A stretch of 64,000 nt of DNA from assembly GCA_022562915.1 (NCBI GenBank), contig JADFOJ010000005.1, positions 1 to 64,000 of the forward strand. The letters run 5' to 3'. Within the stretch, counting starts at the first letter, position 1. Each line of letters starts with the position of its first letter. Below, piece by piece: positions 12,156 to 55,284 of the stretch. This DNA comes from Planctomycetota bacterium. GTDB taxonomy: Bacteria > Planctomycetota > Phycisphaerae > Phycisphaerales > SM1A02. Below the pieces are notes generated by a model. The model saw only the letters and a program-made list of their open reading frames with translations, was not told the DNA's origin and did not search any database. The translations under genes were made by a program, and so were the position numbers.

Positions 12156-12341
12156 CGTACTCTCGGCAACGGCCTTATCGGTCGGATATCTGGGCAGGAT
12201 GCGGCCCCTGCGGAAGCGCCACCGTCTGTGTGGGCACGCATCGATCGCGCCAGCAACGCGGTGTTCGACCCCACCTCTGACGCTGCCGATGAATCCGAGG
12301 AGGCCGCAGTTCTCATCCCGCACCCGAGGGAAACCCATTGA
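12156..12341 (+). pseudogene. C-terminal tail of an unknown gene (copy X1)
   Basis: This frame is open from an in-frame TGA at 12153 to a TGA at 12339-12341, 11 nt before the next ATG. From 12174 it aligns without any gap, at a fixed offset of 1686 nt, to 13860-14027. Shared residues include LIGR, GQ, PAE.PP, WARI, RAS and VL, and the stop is at the equivalent place. Many differences fall in third codon positions, so both copies evolved as coding sequence. The 5' part of the gene is missing. I do not recognise the family. Confidence 0.5.
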
Positions 12342-12352
12342 GCAGGCCAGTC

Positions 12353-13984
12353 ATGCGCACGTCGATCCTCGCCCATGCCGTCCCGGCGCTCGGCGCCCGG
12401 CGTCGCGCGGGAGGAGTACAGGTGAGCCCATCCGAACCTCCCGGCGATGCCGTGAGAATCGTCCGCCGTCGTCCGTTGGCTTCGATGATCGCGTGCATCG
12501 CTTTCCTGGCACTGTCACCCGAGGCGCCGGGCGAGATAGCCACCGGGACCTACACGGGCAACGGCACGACCCAGTCGATTACGGACATCGGATTCCAGCC
12601 CGACGTCGTCATCGTGAAGCGCTACCCGCATAGGAAGGCCTATATGCGCACCTCAACGATGCCCGCCGGTTTGTCCAAGATGATCAAGAAACCGAATGCC
12701 CTGGAGACCGACGGGATCACGTCCCTCGATGCCACCGGCTTCACCGTCGGCAACCTCGTGCATGTAAATGGGCTCAACGACCCCTACTACTGGATTGCGT
12801 TCAAGCAGGAGGCGGGGGTGTGCGAGGTCGGTACCTACACGGGTACACCTGCGGCCCAGACCGTTCCCGTTGCCTTCCAGCCGGACTACGTGATCGTGGT
12901 GCCCGAAGCCGAAAAGGTGTCCGTTCACCGCTCCTCCGCAATAGCCGGAGACAACACCTTCAGCTTTGAAGGCAAACAGAACCCGCCAATTCTTGGCGAC
13001 TACATCACCGCCCTGGTGGCCACCGGTTTCGACGTGGGAATGAACGCGAGCGTCAACACGAACGGTGCGGTCCACCATTATGTGGCCTTCAAGGTGACGG
13101 CGGGGAAGGTGGCCGTCGGTTCCTACCAGGGGGACGGTTCGGACGGTCGGTCCATCTCGGTGGGCTTCCAGCCGGAGTGGGTCCTCATCCACGCCGACAC
13201 CGCGGTAACGGTTCCCGATGGATCGCCCGGCACGATTCATCGCCCGGCGTCGATGTCCGGGGATATCTCACTCAACATGACCTATTCGGAAGAGACGACC
13301 ACGTTTGACAACTGCATCCAGGCGCTCAACGCGACCGGCTTCGAAGTCGGGAGCGACGACACGGTCAACAAGGGGCCGTCCGGGCCCAACTACTACTGGA
13401 TGGCGTTCGGCCCCGCAAGTGCGCCGCCGCAAGCGGTCGTCAACTACCGCTCGATCGGGACCGACACCGGCACCGTGTACTCGACCGGCAACGCGACGGT
13501 CGCCACCGGCTCGAGCACGGTCACCTTCGCCAGCGGAGCGAGCCTGCCGGCCAACGTCGGCAAGGGCGACAAGCTGACGATCGGCAGCGACACGTACTAC
13601 ATTGTCTCGAAGGACTCGCCGACCCAGGTCACCGTTCACGCAGCGTCAGCAAGCCCCTACACGAACACGGCATACACGATCACGCGGGCCTACAACACGC
13701 TGCAGGCGTGGGAGACGGCGCGCCAGGGCGACCTGGTCACCGACAACCGCCAAGTCTGGGTGGCACGGTTGACGTCGCGAAGCGACGCCAGCCGTGTCTT
13801 CGGACGTCGCTCCACGGCAGAGCAAGCTCTACCGTGCCACCCAAGCACCGCAAGTCTGCCTTATCGGGCGGGGCACTGGGCAAGCTGCAGGTCCTGCAGA
13901 AGGACCACCGATTGGATGGGCACGTATCTCTCGCGCCAGCCACGCGCTGCTGGTCCCCGCCGCCGCCGATGCCGATCAGACTGA
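12353..13984 (+). CDS. Truncated repeat-domain surface protein (copy Y1), cut by a palindromic element
   Basis: The start ATG at 12353 aligns with the second copy. After a long basic N-region and a hydrophobic signal (SMIACIAFLALSPEAPGE) come three repeats of about 90 aa that begin like GTYTGNGTTQSI or GSYQGDGSDGRSI and contain VGFQPD..V. Then comes one module start (YRSIGTDTGTVYSTGNA to RAYNTLQAWE). At 13758 the sequence leaves the paralogue (expected NRREVGV) and enters a palindromic element. The last roughly 75 codons are therefore element and junction sequence, rich in Arg/Cys/Pro. Compared with its 1466-aa neighbour, about two thirds of the protein is missing. It is probably non-functional or a short secreted variant. 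Confidence 0.7.
   Translation: MRTSILAHAVPALGARRRAGGVQVSPSEPPGDAVRIVRRRPLASMIACIAFLALSPEAPGEIATGTYTGNGTTQSITDIGFQPDVVIVKRYPHRKAYMRTSTMPAGLSKMIKKPNALETDGITSLDATGFTVGNLVHVNGLNDPYYWIAFKQEAGVCEVGTYTGTPAAQTVPVAFQPDYVIVVPEAEKVSVHRSSAIAGDNTFSFEGKQNPPILGDYITALVATGFDVGMNASVNTNGAVHHYVAFKVTAGKVAVGSYQGDGSDGRSISVGFQPEWVLIHADTAVTVPDGSPGTIHRPASMSGDISLNMTYSEETTTFDNCIQALNATGFEVGSDDTVNKGPSGPNYYWMAFGPASAPPQAVVNYRSIGTDTGTVYSTGNATVATGSSTVTFASGASLPANVGKGDKLTIGSDTYYIVSKDSPTQVTVHAASASPYTNTAYTITRAYNTLQAWETARQGDLVTDNRQVWVARLTSRSDASRVFGRRSTAEQALPCHPSTASLPYRAGHWASCRSCRRTTDWMGTYLSRQPRAAGPRRRRCRSD
13760..13842 (+). repeat. REPIN-like palindromic element, copy 1
   Basis: This 83-bp element has ends GTGGCACGGTTGA and TACCGTGCCACCC. 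The left arm forms a hairpin with tip GTCGC-GAA-GCGAC, the right arm one with tip AGAGC-AA-GCTCT, separated by the linker tcttcggacgtcgct. It interrupts the coding sequence of Y1. The 8-nt sequence CAAGTCTG occurs at 13751-13758 and again at 13851-13858 and could be a target duplication, although the paralogue does not contain it. Related copies are at 23375, 54442 and 54525. Confidence 0.85.
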
Positions 13985-14027
13985 AGGAGGCCGCGTTCTC
14001 GGCCCGCCCTGCAAGGAACCACAGTAA
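13859..14027 (+). pseudogene. C-terminal tail of the same unknown gene (copy X2)
   Basis: This is the second copy of the X tail: LIGRGTGQAAGPAEGPP, WARISRASHA and a TAA stop at 14025-14027. The stop lies 11 nt before the codon that aligns with the Y1 start, as in copy 1. Everything upstream of the tail is lost at the palindromic element. The arrangement shows that the duplicated unit was X followed by Y, and that a deletion at the element removed the end of Y1 and most of X2. Confidence 0.5.
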
Positions 14028-14095
14028 TCCCGCACAGCGTCCGCAAGTCGATCCTCGCCCACGCCGTCCTGGCGGTCGGCAGCCGCCGTCGCATC

Positions 14096-17000
14096 GTGCG
14101 TGTCGCGGTCGTGATTCTCCTCGCCGGGCTCTTCGCGCCGAAGCCGGCCCTCGGGCAGATGGCCACGGGCTCGTACACGGGCGACGGCAGCGACGATCGC
14201 GGGATCACCGGCGTGGGCTTCCAGCCTGACGTCCTCTTCGTCAAGGCCAGCTCGGCGAGTTCGACCGTCTGCCGGATCTCCTCGATGGCCGGGGATCTCT
14301 CCAAGCCGATGTTGCCGCATGTTGACGCGACCACGAACCGGGTCCAATCCCTCGATGCGGACGGATTCACGGTTGGAACCAGTAGCCAGGTCAACGGCGA
14401 TGGCAACACCTACTACTGGACGGCTTTCAAGGCGGCGGCGGGGGAGCTCTACGTCGGGTCCTACGTCGGAGACAGCCAGGACAACCGCAGCATCGCGGGC
14501 GTGGGTTTCCAACCTGACTACGTGATCGTGCTCCCTGAGCCCGGCAACACCAACAGAATGCCCTACCAGCGGTTCTCGTCGATGGTCGGGGACACGAGCA
14601 TCGAGTTCGGCGCGGCGGTTGGGAAGTCAGACCGGATACAGGCCTTCGAGGCGGACGGCTTTCAGCTCGGAAAGAATCAGAATGTCAACAAGTCGGGTGT
14701 GACCCATCACTACGCGGCCTTCAAAGCGGTCGCGGGCAAGATGAAGGTCGGCTCCTATACGGGCGACGGCGCGGACAACCGCTCGATCGCAGGCGTCGGC
14801 TTCCGGCCAGAGTACTTGATCATCAAGGACTACACGACGGATCACCAGGCCGTCCATCGCCCCGCGTCGCTGGCCGGGGACAGCACGCTCTGGTTCACCC
14901 AACGCTTTAACGACACCAACCTGATCCAGGCGCTGGAGGCGGACGGTTTCCAGCTCGGAAACAGTGTGACACCAACGTCGGTCAACCAGTCGGGCGACAC
15001 CTATCACTGGGCGGCGTTTGGGACATCGCTGGCCACCAACTACCGCTCGATCGGAACCGATACCGGGACCGTGTACTCGGGCGGCAACGCGACGGTCGCA
15101 ACCGGCTCGACCACGGTGACCTTCGCCGGCGGCGCGAGCCTGCCCGCCAACGTCGGCCAGGGCGACACGCTGACGATCGCCGGCGACACGTACTACATTC
15201 TCTCGAAGGACTCGCCGACCCAGGTCACCATCCATTCGCCGTCGGCAAGCCCCCACACGACCACGGCGTACACCATTACGCGTGCCTACAACACGCTGCA
15301 GGCGTGGGAGAACGACCGGGACGGCGACCTGGTCGCAGACAATCGCCGTGAGACAGGCGTGTGCTACAACGACGGTGCCTTCAATGCACGGGTGGACATC
15401 AACGACTCCACGACCGACGCCACCCACTACATGCACCTGACCGTGGCCCCCGGCCAGCGCCACTTGGGTGTCGCCGGAATGGGAGCTCGCGTTGACGCGC
15501 TCGGCGGGGGCGGGCCGGGGATAAATCTCATCTTGCTTCGAGACCCCTACACACGCGTCGAGTGGCTTGAGCTCACGAACTTCAATTCCACGGGGATTCT
15601 GATATCGGGGACGGCGCCGAACTGCGTTTTGGAAAACCTGCTGATCCACGACTCGGTCGGTTCGTACTCCGGCATCGAGACGGGGGCCGACGCGATCATC
15701 CGCAACACCATCCTGTACGACGGATATGTGGGGATCAAGCCCATCGGTATTTCCGATGTCACGATCGAGAACGTCACGATCTACAACATGTCACTGTATG
15801 GCACACACATGCACGCGACGGCGAAGGTCACGATCAGGAATGTAATCGCGGTCGGATCGGGCACCACGGATTTCTCCACTCCCGGCACTCTCAATTACTT
15901 CGGGTACAACATGTGGTCGACATCGACGGCCAGTGGAGGTCCCTTCGACCCGAACACCCAGGACGGCAACCACCAGCAGCCGCCTACCGACCTCGGCGAC
16001 CTCTTCGCGTCGATCGAGGCGGGATCAGAGGACCTGCACCTGGAATGGGAGGGCCACGACGCTGTCGAGACGGGGCTCGACCTGTCGGCGAGCTTCACGA
16101 CCGACATCGACGACGAGACCCGGACGGTTCCCTGGGACATCGGCGCCGACCGGATCGGCACCCCCAACCACCGCTCGATCGGAACAAACAGCGCCACCGT
16201 GTACTCGACGGGCGATTCGTCGATCACACTCGGCACGAAGACCGTCACGTTCGGCGGGGCTGCGAGCCTGCCGGCCAACGTGGGGCCCGGCGACGAGCTT
16301 GTGATCAACGGCGAGACGTTCTACATCGCGACAAAGGACTCAACCACCCAGGTCACCGTCGACACGGCCGCTGTCAGCACGCACAGCAACAACTCGTTCA
16401 CGATCAGCCGGGCGTACAACACGCTGCAGGCGTGGGAGGACGATCGGGACGGCGACCTGGTCACCGACAACCGCCGCGAGGTCGGCGTGGCGTACAACGA
16501 CGGACCGTTCACGGCGAATCTTAGCATCCAGGACTCCACCACCGACGCTACCCACTACATGACGCTGACCGTCGCCGAGAGCCAGCGTCACGACGGCACC
16601 GCGGGAACGGGCGTCGTGCTGGACATGGGCGGTGCCTCGGCCAACGTACCCGTCCAGATCTGGGACCCCTACACGAAGTTCGAATGGTTCGAGGTCACCG
16701 ACTCGAACAAGGACGGCGCCACGGTCAAAGCGGCGGCGACGCAGGTCGAGCTGTCGAATCTCATCGTGCACGACGTGATCAAATGGGGCATCGCGGCCTG
16801 GGACTCGGGCACGACGACCATACGCAACTGCGTGGTGTACGACGCGGGGGAGGTTGGCATCATCATCTATAAGGGCACGACCACCGTCGACAACTGCACG
16901 GTCGACGGGACCGGCTCGATCGCGGGGATCTACTTCCTCAACACCGGCCCAACGACTGTGACGATCAGGAACACGATCGCGGTCGGCAGCGCCGTTGACT

Positions 17001-18496
17001 TCGGGGCCTGGACGACCGGGGTGACGGTCAGCTACTTCGGCTACAACATGTACGCCACGTCCGACAGCAACTTCGACCCGGAAGCCTACAACGACAACAA
17101 CCAGGCGCCGCCGGCGGACCTGGACGACCTGTTCGTGTCCATCGCCCCCGGCAGCGAGGACTATCACCTGGAGTGGGAGGGTCACAGCGCTCTCAACACC
17201 GGCCTCGACCTGTCCTCCAGTCTGCTGACCGACATCGACGGGGACATTCGGCTCGTGCCGTGGGACATCGGCGCCGACTGGGTCACGCCCTCCAACCATC
17301 GCTCGATCGGCACGACGACGGGCTCCCTGTACTCCGCGGGGACCGCAACGATGAGTGCGGGCTCGGTCATCGTCACGTTCGCGAGCGCCACGCTCCCGGC
17401 CAACATCGGCCCCGGCGACAAGCTGGTGATCGGCGCCGAGACCTTCCACATCTTCACGAAGGACTCGACCACCCAGGTCTCCGTCCACCTCCCGGCGGCG
17501 ACCACCCACACGGCGGAGGCCTACACCGTCTCGCGGGCGTACAACACGCTGCAGGCCTGGGAAACCGCCCGCCAGGGTGACCTTGTGACCGACGACCGCC
17601 GCGAGTACGGCGTGTGCTACAACGACGGCCCCTTCACGAGCCGACTGGTGATCAGCGGCTCCACGACGGACCAGGACCACTTCATGAGGGTCACCGTCGC
17701 TGACGGCCAGCGGCACAACGGGCTGATCAACACCGGCGCTGCAATCGATGCCGCCGGGGGCTTCGGCGGATCCAACGCGATCGACGTCGAGGACCAGTAC
17801 ACCCGGATCGACGGGCTGGAGATCAAGAACATCAACGATGCCGGCAACGGGATCTACTTCGACGACAGCCCGGCCGCGGACAACGGGATGGTCTCCAACG
17901 TCTTCGTCCACTCGTTCTGGCAGTTCGGCAACGCCGGCGTGGACGTCGGCGCCCAGAACGTCACCGTCCGCAACTCGTTCTTCGACGGCACCTCGGACGT
18001 CGGCATCCGATTGCTGGCCGGTAGCACCGCGACGATCGAGAACTGCACGCTGTACGGTGACGGCGCTGCAGGCAGCGGCGTCACCGACGGGGCCGGGGCC
18101 ACGGCGACCATCAGGAACACGATCTCGGTGAACCACCCCGGGGGCAACGACTTCGTGCTCAACGCATCAATCGCCTTCTTCGGCAACAACATGTTCTCGA
18201 CGGTGACCGGCTTCGACCCGGACCTGCAGGACGGTGGCCACCAGTGGCCGCCACAGAATCTCAAGCACCTGTTCATCGACAGGAGCACGTACGATCTGCA
18301 CCTGAGGACCAAGGGCAACTACGCGGCCAACGCGGGGCTCGACCTCTCGGCCTTCTTCAAAGACGACATCGACGGCGACGTCCGTGTCGTCGCCTGGGAC
18401 ATCGGCGCCGACGAGGGCGTCTCAGGCACCGAGCTGCTGAAACCCAAGGTGCTCCGGTGGAAGGAGCAGGGCCCGACCATCGTCGCGTCGCCGTAG
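14096..18496 (+). CDS. Giant secreted protein: three N-terminal beta repeats and three beta-helix modules (copy Y2)
   Basis: This is a 1466-aa protein from a GTG start. The codon aligned with the Y1 ATG is GTC at 14039, so the original start is lost, though upstream codons still read VRKSILAHAV. A signal peptide (VAVVILLAGLFAPKPALGQ) precedes three repeats of about 95 aa (GSYTGDGSDDR, GSYVGDSQDNR, GSYTGDGADNR; each with VGF.P). Three modules of about 370 aa follow (roughly 315-690, 690-1063, 1063-1448). Each opens RSIGT, contains RAYNTLQAWE and a run of parallel beta-helix rungs (TIRN..., TIENCT), and closes with DIGAD. No anchor is seen; the C-terminus is GPTIVASP. The role is probably adhesion or polysaccharide contact. 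The catalytic residues of beta-helix lyases were not identified. Confidence 0.85.
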   Translation: MRVAVVILLAGLFAPKPALGQMATGSYTGDGSDDRGITGVGFQPDVLFVKASSASSTVCRISSMAGDLSKPMLPHVDATTNRVQSLDADGFTVGTSSQVNGDGNTYYWTAFKAAAGELYVGSYVGDSQDNRSIAGVGFQPDYVIVLPEPGNTNRMPYQRFSSMVGDTSIEFGAAVGKSDRIQAFEADGFQLGKNQNVNKSGVTHHYAAFKAVAGKMKVGSYTGDGADNRSIAGVGFRPEYLIIKDYTTDHQAVHRPASLAGDSTLWFTQRFNDTNLIQALEADGFQLGNSVTPTSVNQSGDTYHWAAFGTSLATNYRSIGTDTGTVYSGGNATVATGSTTVTFAGGASLPANVGQGDTLTIAGDTYYILSKDSPTQVTIHSPSASPHTTTAYTITRAYNTLQAWENDRDGDLVADNRRETGVCYNDGAFNARVDINDSTTDATHYMHLTVAPGQRHLGVAGMGARVDALGGGGPGINLILLRDPYTRVEWLELTNFNSTGILISGTAPNCVLENLLIHDSVGSYSGIETGADAIIRNTILYDGYVGIKPIGISDVTIENVTIYNMSLYGTHMHATAKVTIRNVIAVGSGTTDFSTPGTLNYFGYNMWSTSTASGGPFDPNTQDGNHQQPPTDLGDLFASIEAGSEDLHLEWEGHDAVETGLDLSASFTTDIDDETRTVPWDIGADRIGTPNHRSIGTNSATVYSTGDSSITLGTKTVTFGGAASLPANVGPGDELVINGETFYIATKDSTTQVTVDTAAVSTHSNNSFTISRAYNTLQAWEDDRDGDLVTDNRREVGVAYNDGPFTANLSIQDSTTDATHYMTLTVAESQRHDGTAGTGVVLDMGGASANVPVQIWDPYTKFEWFEVTDSNKDGATVKAAATQVELSNLIVHDVIKWGIAAWDSGTTTIRNCVVYDAGEVGIIIYKGTTTVDNCTVDGTGSIAGIYFLNTGPTTVTIRNTIAVGSAVDFGAWTTGVTVSYFGYNMYATSDSNFDPEAYNDNNQAPPADLDDLFVSIAPGSEDYHLEWEGHSALNTGLDLSSSLLTDIDGDIRLVPWDIGADWVTPSNHRSIGTTTGSLYSAGTATMSAGSVIVTFASATLPANIGPGDKLVIGAETFHIFTKDSTTQVSVHLPAATTHTAEAYTVSRAYNTLQAWETARQGDLVTDDRREYGVCYNDGPFTSRLVISGSTTDQDHFMRVTVADGQRHNGLINTGAAIDAAGGFGGSNAIDVEDQYTRIDGLEIKNINDAGNGIYFDDSPAADNGMVSNVFVHSFWQFGNAGVDVGAQNVTVRNSFFDGTSDVGIRLLAGSTATIENCTLYGDGAAGSGVTDGAGATATIRNTISVNHPGGNDFVLNASIAFFGNNMFSTVTGFDPDLQDGGHQWPPQNLKHLFIDRSTYDLHLRTKGNYAANAGLDLSAFFKDDIDGDVRVVAWDIGADEGVSGTELLKPKVLRWKEQGPTIVASP

Positions 18497-23349: not shown

Positions 23350-23374
23350 CGAAGGGTATTCTACTAAAAACAGC

Positions 23375-23475
23375 GGTGGCACGGTTGAACTCGCGAAGCG
23401 AGTTCGGCCGTGTCTTGGGACGTCGCTCCACGGCCGAACTCGTCCGCGGACGGACGAGTTCAACCGTGCCACCCC
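23375..23475 (+). repeat. REPIN-like palindromic element, copy 2
   Basis: This 101-bp copy has perfect 19-nt terminal inverted repeats (GGTGGCACGGTTGAACTCG at the left end). The left arm hairpin has stem GAACTCGC and loop gaa. The right arm has an 11-bp stem GAACTCGTCCG. The linker tcttgggacgtcgct separates them. It occupies almost the whole gap between the methyltransferase start (23349) and the stop of the EEP gene (23480-23482), ending 4 nt before that stop codon. Confidence 0.9.
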
Positions 23476-23479
23476 TCGT

Positions 23480-24952
23480 CTATTCCCACGCCAGGTCCAC
23501 GACGACCGGCATGTGATCACTGGCGTCGGCCGTGTCGCCCGCGCCCAGCCCGTGATGCGCCAACCAGCGCCGGCCCAGGTCGCGAGTATCCAGCACGAAC
23601 GCGCCGCGAGATTCCGGCGACGGGCTCGACAGGAGCATGAAATCCAGGCGACCCGGCATGAACGGCCGGCGGGCGTCCGCCCACGTCGCGTTGGACCGAC
23701 CGTCGATCTGCAGCGCCTCGACCACCACCAGCGACTCCGAAAGAACCTCCAGCGGCCACCGCGAGCCGACGAGGTTCAGATCGCCGCCCACGACCACCCC
23801 GTCAAAGCGGCGCGACGACATCGCGCGTTCCACGGCCCTGCGGATCGCGTCCGCTTCGACCAGGCGGGTGCGGTCCTCGAAGCTGCCGGCCTTGCCGCAA
23901 CAACGCAGGTGGGCGCACACGACAAGCAATCGGCGGCCCGCCTGCGTGATCTCGGCGCCCAGCACGCGGACCGACCGGTCCGGCCGATCCGGCAGGGGCA
24001 GCGGGTCCAGCGGCGCGTATTTCTTCATCGTGAGCCGTGACGCGATCGCGCAGCGGAGCCTTCCGCCGCCGCTGCCGATGATCACGCTCCATCGCTGCCG
24101 CCTGGCGGCCGGAATCGATTGCTGGAGCAAGGCGGCCAACTCGGCCGGGTCGTCCGCCTCGGTCAGCTCCTGGAAGAGGATCACGTCCGGCGCCAGGGCG
24201 TGCAGGAGGCGGCCGAAGAGTGCCCGGCGGTCGCGCAGCCCGTTGGCACCGGTGTTCCAGGTCACGACGCGCAGGTCGGTGCCCGGCGCCCGGGCAAGCG
24301 GGTCCGCCGGTTGGCCGGCGGGTGCCGGGGCAACCGGCGTCAGCTCGTGGGAGAAGGTTTCGGTGGTGTCACGAATCCTGCCGGCGCGATCGATGAAGAT
24401 GAGCCTCGCCCGGAATCGCCCCGGGCCCAGGAACGACTTGACGCCGGGCAGGACCGCCCCGCGACGCAGTCGAAACTCGAAAAGGTCGCCGGCATAGGTG
24501 GGACCGTAGGTGAAGCCGATCAGGTGAGCGCTGAGACGCATCCGGTCGCCGGGCGGCGGGTCATCGACGGGTATCGCGATGCCCGCGCCACGTCCCGCCG
24601 GAGGGGTCGACTGCGGATCGCGCGGGCTGAGCTCGACGATGACGTCCACTCCCGGCATGTCGTGGACGCTCCGGCCGGTAGCAGTGTCCGCATCGACGTC
24701 GAGCAGTATCTCGATCGACCCGTCGAGTTGCTGCACGTTGACCGTTCGGCCCAGTTCGACCAGCAGGTGTACGAAGCGGTGGTCGTGAGTGACGCGGACC
24801 GTGCCGAAATCGACGGCCGCATCCGGCGCGTCGGCGGGGTCATCGACGGCGACCGGCACGGTGGTCCAGTCCTCGAACCGCCCGTCGATCACGACCGGCG
24901 ACGCCGCGGCGGCAACGGACGCGAAAACGGCGAACAGCAGTGGCACAGACAT
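23480..24952 (-). CDS. Secreted endonuclease/exonuclease/phosphatase-fold protein with N-terminal CBM9-like domain
   Basis: This 490-aa protein has a signal peptide (MSVPLLFAVFASVAAAA). Residues about 20-200 begin VVIDGRFEDWTTVP and continue with beta-rich sequence, as in DOMON/CBM9-like sugar-binding domains. The C-terminal half has the EEP catalytic motifs: VVTWNTG, ILFQELTEADD, GGDLN (metal and phosphate site) and SDHMPVVVDL at the end. The substrate (nucleic acid, phospholipid or phosphosugar) cannot be told. It is divergent from the membrane protein at 24963 with a very short gap. Confidence 0.85.
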   Translation of the reverse strand: MSVPLLFAVFASVAAAASPVVIDGRFEDWTTVPVAVDDPADAPDAAVDFGTVRVTHDHRFVHLLVELGRTVNVQQLDGSIEILLDVDADTATGRSVHDMPGVDVIVELSPRDPQSTPPAGRGAGIAIPVDDPPPGDRMRLSAHLIGFTYGPTYAGDLFEFRLRRGAVLPGVKSFLGPGRFRARLIFIDRAGRIRDTTETFSHELTPVAPAPAGQPADPLARAPGTDLRVVTWNTGANGLRDRRALFGRLLHALAPDVILFQELTEADDPAELAALLQQSIPAARRQRWSVIIGSGGGRLRCAIASRLTMKKYAPLDPLPLPDRPDRSVRVLGAEITQAGRRLLVVCAHLRCCGKAGSFEDRTRLVEADAIRRAVERAMSSRRFDGVVVGGDLNLVGSRWPLEVLSESLVVVEALQIDGRSNATWADARRPFMPGRLDFMLLSSPSPESRGAFVLDTRDLGRRWLAHHGLGAGDTADASDHMPVVVDLAWE

Positions 24953-53429: not shown

Positions 53430-54440
53430 ATGCCCACGCCGAGTCCACTCCGAACGGCCCGGGAGAGCCGGCAGCACATAAAGAACATTGCGGCGCACTG
53501 GGCCCTGGTCGGCTCGGTTGTGCTCCTGCCGCTGACGCTGCTTCCATTTATCGGATGGCGGTATCCGTTGGAATTACTGTCACACTTCCAGGCGCAGTAC
53601 TTCCTGGCGGCGCTGGCGTGCGCGGCATTGCTCGCACTGCTGCGCCGGTGGCGGTGGTTTGCGGTCTCGCTGGGGAGCCTCCTGCTGGCCGCGAGCACGG
53701 TCCTGCCGTACGCGGGGGCGGGACGGGCCGCGCACGCCGACGCCGTCATGCCCGCCGAGCGGACGGTGCGACTGCTGATGGCGAACGTCCTGCTCGGCAA
53801 TCGCTCCCACGGCCGCGTGCTGCACCTCGTCGAGGAGGCCGACGCCGACGTGCTCGTCTTCCAGGAGGTCAACGAGCGCTGGAGGGCGGCGCTGGCGCCG
53901 ATCACCGGCAGATACCCGTACATCGCGGGCACTCCGCGCGAGGACGCCTTCGGCACGCTCGTGTACAGCCGCTTGCCGATCGAGGAAGTCGACGTGGTGG
54001 TGCTCGGCAAGGCGGGCCGGTCGACGGTCTGCCTGCGGGTCATCGTCGATGGTGCGCCGCTGACCATCGTATGCACGCACCCGAAGCCGCCGCACCTGCC
54101 GACAGCCTTCACGCTTCGCAATGACCAACTCGAACAGGTCGCGGACCTCGTCGGCCGCCTGCCGCGACCGCTGGTGCTGGCCGGCGACCTCAACACCACG
54201 ATGTGGTCGCCGTGGTTCCGGCGATTGACAGAGCAGACCGCGTTGAGAAGCGTGCGTCGCGGTTTCGGCGTTCTCGCGAGCTGGCCCGCGGCCCTGCCGG
54301 GATTCCTGCGAATCCCCATCGACCACGTTCTGGTCAGCGATGACGTCTCCGTGACCGGGTGCCGCCTCGGCGCCCCGACAGGCTCCGACCACCTGCCCCT
54401 GATCGTCGACCTGGTGTTGCCGCCGGCGGACGACGTCTAA
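53430..54440 (+). CDS. Membrane-anchored endonuclease/exonuclease/phosphatase-family protein
   Basis: This 336-aa protein has three hydrophobic N-terminal segments (HWALVGSVVLLPLTLLPFIGW, YFLAALACAALLALL, FAVSLGSLLLAASTVLP). The EEP domain follows: LLMANVLLGN, VLVFQEVNERW, LTIVCTHPKPP, LVLAGDLNTTMWSPWFRRL and TGSDHLPLIVDLV. The layout resembles extracytoplasmic EEP proteins of the YbhP/DUF type. The TAA stop lies inside what looks like a half copy of the palindromic element (gacgtcTAAccacgg against the linker gacgtcgctccacgg), so the gene end has been reshaped by it. Confidence 0.88.
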   Translation: MPTPSPLRTARESRQHIKNIAAHWALVGSVVLLPLTLLPFIGWRYPLELLSHFQAQYFLAALACAALLALLRRWRWFAVSLGSLLLAASTVLPYAGAGRAAHADAVMPAERTVRLLMANVLLGNRSHGRVLHLVEEADADVLVFQEVNERWRAALAPITGRYPYIAGTPREDAFGTLVYSRLPIEEVDVVVLGKAGRSTVCLRVIVDGAPLTIVCTHPKPPHLPTAFTLRNDQLEQVADLVGRLPRPLVLAGDLNTTMWSPWFRRLTEQTALRSVRRGFGVLASWPAALPGFLRIPIDHVLVSDDVSVTGCRLGAPTGSDHLPLIVDLVLPPADDV

Positions 54441-54441
54441 C

Positions 54442-54480
54442 CACGGCCGAACTCGCTCCGCGAGTTCAACCGTGCCACAC
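54442..54480 (+). repeat. REPIN-like element, half copy (single arm)
   Basis: This is one arm only: ccacggcc, stem GAACTCGC, loop tcc, stem GCGAGTTC, then aaccgtgccaca. It begins directly after the EEP gene stop. Forty-four nt of unrelated sequence separate it from the full copy at 54525. Confidence 0.8.
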
Positions 54481-54524
54481 AGATTGCGCTGCGAACGTAC
54501 AGGGACGCATCTGCGAATCCGAGT

Positions 54525-54617
54525 GTGGCACGGTTGAGCGAGTCCGCCTCCGGCGGACTCGCTCGGCCGTGGAGCGACGCACGAAGACACGGCAGAGCAA
54601 GCTCTACCGTGCCACCC
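54525..54617 (-). repeat. REPIN-like palindromic element, copy 3
   Basis: This 93-bp copy is in the opposite orientation to copies 1 and 2. Reading the minus strand: ggtggcacggt, tip AGAGC-TT-GCTCT, gccgtg, linker tcttcgtgcgtcgct, ccacggcc, a 15-bp stem GAGCGAGTCCGCC..., then aaccgtgccac. The element overlaps the end of nth and provides its last codons and TAG stop. Confidence 0.9.
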
Positions 54618-55284
54618 TCGATGTCTTGGCGTTCGAGCAGTACCTGCGACAAATGGTGTCCCGGGCGCACTCGCCGCCACGTGCCTTGCATACCCGGCGA
54701 CCGTGCCGGATGAGCAGGTGGCTGAGCATGGTCCACTCGTCGCGGGGGAACAGCGCCATCAGGTCACGCTCGATCTTGACGGGGTTGGTGTGGCCGGTGA
54801 GGTCGAACCGCTGCGAGAGCCGCATGACGTGTGTGTCCACGACGACGCCCTCGTTGATCGCGTAGGCGTTGCCGAGCACGACGTTGGCCGTCTTGCGGGC
54901 GACGCCGCGGAGCGCGAGCAGGTCCTGCATCGTGTCGGGTACCGTGCCGCCGAAATCCCTTTCGATCGTCTTCATCGACTCGTGGATTGCCCGTGCCTTC
55001 ATGCGAAAGAATCCCAGCGACTTGACGTACGGCTCGATCGAGCGCGGCGTGGCCGCCGCGTAGTCGGCGGGCTTGGGAAACTTCGCGAAGAGCTTCGGCG
55101 TCGCCTTGTTGACGCCGACGTCGGTCGTCTGCGCGGAGAGGATCGTCGCGATCAGCAGTTCGTGGGGCGACGCGTAGTCCAGCTCGCAGTGGGCGTCCGG
55201 GTACTGTGCGTACAGCGCCTTGAGGATTCGCCGGGCGCGGGCCTTTGCCGCCGGGGCCGGGGCCGGGGCCGGGGTCGGGGTCAT
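54604..55284 (-). CDS. nth: Endonuclease III with an unusual iron-sulfur cysteine spacing
   Basis: This 226-aa HhH-GPD DNA glycosylase has LLIATILSAQTTDVGVNKAT, the HhH motif LLALRGVARKTANVVL with catalytic Lys, and VVVDTHVMRLSQRF (catalytic Asp in VDTHV). The C-terminal cluster reads CKARGGECARDTICRRYC: C-x6-C-x5-C-x3-C, instead of C-x6-C-x2-C-x5-C. Residues from SRVAR to the TAG come from palindromic element copy 3, so the original C-terminus has been replaced. The start overlaps the membrane-protein stop by 4 nt (ATGA). Confidence 0.92.
   Translation of the reverse strand: MTPTPAPAPAPAAKARARRILKALYAQYPDAHCELDYASPHELLIATILSAQTTDVGVNKATPKLFAKFPKPADYAAATPRSIEPYVKSLGFFRMKARAIHESMKTIERDFGGTVPDTMQDLLALRGVARKTANVVLGNAYAINEGVVVDTHVMRLSQRFDLTGHTNPVKIERDLMALFPRDEWTMLSHLLIRHGRRVCKARGGECARDTICRRYCSNAKTSRVAR

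Follow-up and report, generated by a model that had tools for sequence, protein, structure and literature searches.

A REPIN family of a planctomycete genome that gathers at gene 3' ends and supplies stop codons to some of its neighbours

The facing ends of two genes in the 64,000-nucleotide stretch of Planctomycetota DNA analysed here (the window) are partly made of a repeated palindrome, which is very probably a REPIN: a non-autonomous mobile palindrome composed of two inverted REPs bearing the tag (GG)GTGGCACGG, with a short linker between them. The repeats and their palindromy, a RAYT gene with these tags on both sides, a bias towards gene 3' ends, stop codons lying inside elements and the dispensable nature of the resulting protein tails were all observed. 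The explanation that best unites them, to which we give a probability of about 0.9, is that REPINs are spread by their cognate RAYT, persist mainly where they are least harmful and sometimes alter the stops of adjoining genes. The elements form a new REPIN-RAYT family, of a kind already described in other bacteria.

An endonuclease/exonuclease/phosphatase (EEP) family gene on the plus strand (53430..54440; PF03372, E 1.2e-29) and nth, coding for endonuclease III on the minus strand (54604..55284; TIGR01083, 232.9 bits against a cut-off of 211.7), converge on segment 54431-54617, which holds one lone REP and one full inverted pair. The lone REP, a REPIN half with its linker half, occupies 54431..54480 on the minus strand (tag 54472-54478, inner foot 54442-54446, linker 54431-54441); its predicted fold reaches -29.6 kcal/mol (z -3.9), and it shows 97% complementarity with copy 2 of the element across 37 nt. 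The full REPIN (copy 3, plus strand, 54525..54615, taken to 54617 by a terminal CC) contains two inverted REPs with GTGGCACGG tags and folds at -62.3 kcal/mol (z -7.8). The Nth protein ends in ...CSNAK-TSRVAR, and its final three codons plus stop (GTG GCA CGG TAG, 54604..54615, minus strand) correspond to the initial 12 nt of the REP tag at the outer end of this intact 91-nt element, exactly as the original prediction had read them. The same prediction had located the EEP stop in a degenerate copy of the linker, and this was borne out as well. Indeed, the EEP protein ends in ...PPADDV, encoded up to GAC GTC TAA and followed by CCACGG, and the TAA (54438..54440, plus strand) falls inside the REP linker, with TAAC here versus CAAC in the consensus. 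Read outwards from the REP foot, the last EEP codons give GTTAGACGTCG, which matches the linker GTTGGACGTCG, present in five other sampled arms, at 10 of 11 positions. No match to any linker better than 9/11 was obtained at any of 474 element-free gene ends, a contrast whose strength is somewhat overstated since the 11-nt window was picked after a 16-nt window had given only 11/16, equalled by 26 of the 474 controls; the signal sits in the 11 nt beside the foot.

The two remaining copies of the window bear on the claim that every copy is found no more than 5 nt from the point where a gene's translation ends, which failed. Copy 2 (23374..23474, plus strand; -70.3 kcal/mol, z -7.5) faces the 3' end of EEP-2, a second EEP-domain gene on the minus strand (23480..24952; PF03372, E 2.5e-14). 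The last position of its tag is 23472 and the EEP-2 stop codon spans 23480-23482; the copy is thus close to the stop, as had been proposed, at a distance of 7 nt, or 5 nt counting the terminal CC, instead of 4 nt. Copy 1 (13758..13842, also given as 13760-13840, plus strand; z -4.6) lies inside the plus-strand open reading frame 12338..13984 of gene A, a truncated repeat protein that is probably the gene called Y1 in the original prediction and said to be ended by the element. Recognisable homology does end there, as the similarity of gene A to its paralogue at 14096-18496 stops at residue 472 and copy 1 begins at residue 475, but the frame continues through the element to a stop 144 nt downstream, and the part of its 548 residues beyond the homology consists of element and downstream DNA. 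Copy 1 therefore sits where the recognisable gene A was cut short, yet supplies no stop. In the wider sample described below, just 16 of 70 elements come that close to a stop. Gene A and its neighbour (together 12338-18496) code for related repeat proteins, and positions 13858-14092 resemble 12172-12406 (71%), the latter near the gene A start; this points to an ancient tandem duplication whose junction lies close to copy 1.

Genome-wide, the pattern GTGGCACGGTNGANC with at most one mismatch was counted 388 times across the 3.6-Mb assembly, against 11 occurrences of a reversed control. Sampled stretches totalling 710 kb contain 79 clusters, of which 51 are simple plus-minus inverted pairs, mostly of 70-111 bp; only two of the 79 lie within called genes. 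The tag GTGGCACGG is combined with the inner foot CCGTG in 126 of 145 arms. The arms form imperfect hairpins whose foot (CACGG/CCGTG) is fixed, while above it the bases vary but pairing is kept: the pair above the foot covaries (C-G 86, T-G 23, A-T 9, T-A 6), and the stem dinucleotides are TC/GC in 83 arms, TT/GG in 22 and TA/TG in 8. Although 73 distinct upper stems were counted among the 126 sampled arms, most still pair, with positions 1-4 and 7-10 paired in 82-99% of arms, and the commonest linkers have an ACG/GACG core in common. The hairpins of the full elements are very stable, with z between -4.6 and -7.8. The family has the hallmarks of REPs, namely a GT(A/G)G-type tag at one end of a short palindrome and a high, mostly extragenic copy number, together with that of REPINs, two REPs in inverted orientation around a short conserved spacer. 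Target-site duplications above chance were absent from REPIN flanks, a result in keeping with Y1 enzymes and in itself uninformative. In 40 relatives searched, none of the same genus, tag counts were near background, and the GTGG REP family is apparently confined to this genome among the 41 searched.

Enzymatically, the probable driver is a 179-residue protein (P0004), hereafter the C83 RAYT, which scores 88.2 bits against the cut-off of 80 for NF047646 ('REP-associated tyrosine transposase') and whose HUH region aligns with transposase chains of known structure, 2xm3 among them. Its gene is bracketed by tags of the family, GTGGCACGG at L106:4435 and CCGTGCCAC at L106:5157, so that a predicted cognate RAYT gene lies between REPs of the same family. 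The closest relatives found, at 60% and 51% identity, come from a Phycisphaeraceae and a Planctomycetales MAG, respectively. Three RAYT relatives, from Phycisphaeraceae, Planctomycetales and Hydrogenedentota MAGs, are flanked by palindromes tagged GGGTGCCAC, one base off GGGTGGCAC. Two other Y1 genes of the genome, at L009 and L010, also exceed the family cut-off, and their flanking inverted repeats are unrelated to the GTGG tag.

Besides nth and the EEP gene, other genes of the 710-kb sample are ended by the same elements. Elements face 98 gene 3' ends and overlap about 9 of them (roughly one in eleven stop inside an element), five in the tag or stem and four on the linker side of lone REPs. 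The stop falls within the tag in three genes (VAR-TAG in nth, WHG-TGA at L090 and L098) and within the stem in two (L087 and L103). Genes of other kinds than DNA or phosphate enzymes are among those concerned, and no special link with such enzymes was apparent. In four lone REPs (L072:13398, L080:5206, L087:1263 and window 54431) the linker end falls directly at the stop codon of the neighbouring gene, which gives the impression of REPINs half-lost up to that codon.

What these tails replaced can be read from the orthologues. Many nth orthologues end at or soon after CSNAK and the remainder carry unrelated tails, while most EEP orthologues stop no more than about 20 residues past SDHxP, again with unrelated tails. 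Element-free orthologues share the same end of the conserved core (...CSNAK in Nth, ...SDHLPLIVDx in EEP) and differ freely beyond it, so no conserved residue was replaced. At L090 and L103, the best-orthologue alignments end at residues 210-214 of 217 and at about 398-408 of 414, respectively, before or about where the element-coded residues start. In the four genes compared (nth, EEP, L090 and L103), the alignments thus indicate that the elements supplied a variable tail only. The orthologue comparison suggested with the original prediction gave an outcome in between: stops and C-termini are supplied by the elements, but conserved residues are untouched and the tails alone differ. G020 was considered as an empty-site comparison since EEP and nth are near neighbours there, and was set aside because another gene intervenes; the gap after its EEP gene is about 10 nt, carries no tag and is not the same junction.

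Placement was assessed on the 710 kb of sampled stretches, about a fifth of the genome, by measuring distances to the stops called by a simple gene caller trained on these stretches (551 genes, 88% coding). Among 70 elements in gaps, 32 lie in convergent gaps, where intergenic length predicts 9.5 (p 7e-11), 30 in tandem gaps (37.1 expected) and 8 in divergent gaps (23.4 expected); in tandem gaps, 21 of 28 copies are nearer the 3' end. An element occupies 34% of the sampled convergent gaps, a rate inflated because the stretches were picked for containing elements, while comparisons between gap types within stretches should be unaffected. Distances to the stop are at most 5 nt for 16 elements, at most 10 nt for 32 and at most 20 nt for 39. 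Uniform intergenic placement would put 4.1 elements within 10 nt. When each element is randomised within its own gap, 23.2 (sd 2.5) are expected within 10 nt, versus the 32 observed, and 16.5 within 5 nt, versus 16, so that there is no excess at 0-5 nt. The 3' bias mainly reflects which gap and which side of it are occupied, and at 6-10 nt there is a modest additional enrichment. The original prediction had offered either a preference for 3' ends or survival only there; the bias itself holds for the fifth of the genome that was sampled, and the two causes are not fully separable. Survival at harmless sites fits best, given the absence of an excess at 0-5 nt within gaps and the avoidance of divergent gaps. 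Most of the 3' bias probably stems from insertions being tolerated where they spare promoters and coding DNA, and the excess at 6-10 nt leaves room for some real target preference.

We infer that the C83 RAYT moves the REPINs and that survival rather than target choice creates the bias. Located elsewhere in the genome between two same-family REPs, the enzyme would mobilise the REPINs; copies falling in genes or at promoters would be lost, and those falling in convergent gaps and just past stops would persist. Upon landing on or next to a stop, the reading frame would enter the tag, which offers VAR-stop (GTG GCA CGG TAG) or WHG-stop (TGG CAC GGT TGA), or alternatively the linker, which may carry or acquire a stop, and the protein would thereby gain a short new tail beyond its conserved core. 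It is hardly credible that the overlaps with stop codons are chance similarities instead of element sequence: a tag of only 9 nt in a 67% G+C genome could invite such matches, but the nth tag belongs to an intact REPIN, the EEP linker match is equalled by none of the controls, and the tag pattern far outnumbers its control.

Two further readings concern the bias, and both seem rather unlikely. If gene 3' ends were targeted directly, for example through terminator hairpins, the bias would arise at insertion and not from survival. The surplus of elements within 10 nt of stops, which persists when the gap is taken into account, points this way, as do the REPIN at L091:9005-9112, which lies between near-perfectly complementary flanks of about 20 nt, and a second palindrome family centred in longer palindromes. 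Set against this, the flanks of 53 REPINs show no greater complementarity than do mismatched pairs (-9.98 versus -9.61, sd 0.42), the closest distances (0-5 nt) are not enriched, and past the terminal CC/AC only a weak enrichment of T appears, at flank positions 7-9, for which AT-richer intergenic DNA may account. Alternatively, the elements may be kept at gene ends by positive selection, as terminators or stabilisers of mRNA 3' ends. Such roles have been proposed for REPs elsewhere (PMC3733652) and would agree with the very stable hairpins and with the frequent occupation of sampled convergent gaps. However, the sequence and length of the stem vary widely, the family is absent from the 40 relatives, and a T-rich stretch (7 or more T within 14 nt) follows only 5 of 158 element sides, on which ground classical intrinsic terminators were rejected. 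Spread by the RAYT with survival at the least harmful sites remains our preferred account.

Much of this behaviour has precedents. Di Nocera et al. 2013 (PMC3733652) found REPs mostly downstream of genes, P. entomophila included, and both their proximity to 3' ends and REP termini that provide stop codons were already reported there. The GTAG-tagged REPs and REP dimers of that work resemble the present elements in their tag (GTRG or GTGG in some families), palindromy and dimers, in adjoining the 3' ends of convergent or tandem genes, in giving TAG stops to flanking ORFs and in having a repeat-flanked RAYT; the present family differs by GTGG throughout, an extended (GG)GTGGCACGG foot and its diversity of upper stems within one genome. 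Likewise, P. fluorescens REPINs (PMC3116915), in the account that PMC3733652 gives of them, are units of two inverted REPs and a short linker, with single REPs occurring as remnants; the family reported here belongs to another phylum (Planctomycetota) and has an unrelated stem sequence. GTGG-type REPs with RAYTs were listed for P. fluorescens SBW25 by Nunvar et al. 2010 (PMC2817692). The C83 RAYT has the REPtron layout, in which two inverted REPs of one family enclose a Y1 transposase gene (PMC2817692; NF047646), and is distinguished by nearest relatives in Phycisphaeraceae and Planctomycetales MAGs and by their GGGTGCCAC tags. The Y1 genes at L009 and L010, flanked by non-GTGG inverted repeats, are rather like the TIRYT/TIRtron type (PMC3733652), except that one of these repeat families is nested centrally in GTGG REPs. 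This work adds a well-supported REPIN-RAYT family from a planctomycete host and puts a count on the editing of C-termini by a mobile palindrome.

The nested second family is the least ordinary observation and the one most worth following. This palindrome of about 82 bp, AAAATAGACCGGGA...TCCCGGTCTATTTT, matches the repeats around the Y1 (RAYT) gene at L010. It is usually centred in a longer palindrome, with on average 10.1 of 12 flanking bases complementary in 11 copies versus 6.2 for mismatched flanks, and 7 of the 11 copies lie inside GTGG REP hairpins (L075, L078, L080, L087, L089, L090 and L100; free sites at L070, L087 and L102). The third Y1 gene, L009:1100-1990, has its own flanking inverted repeats, AAAAAGGGGTCGGGAGTCTTTT, hence the genome holds three Y1 genes with three different palindromes. 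That Y1 palindromes here insert at, or create, the symmetric centres of other hairpins, one RAYT family nesting in another, is a speculative idea that we hold to be improbable; should GTGG REPINs do likewise at weak terminator hairpins, their placement at 3' ends would be explained by hairpin targeting rather than by survival alone. Finally, the inverted sequences on either side of the REPIN at L091 are agcgagcgccaaggatagtgg and ccactatcctggcgctcgct, as if the element had been inserted in a hairpin loop or one flank had been copied by fold-back synthesis.
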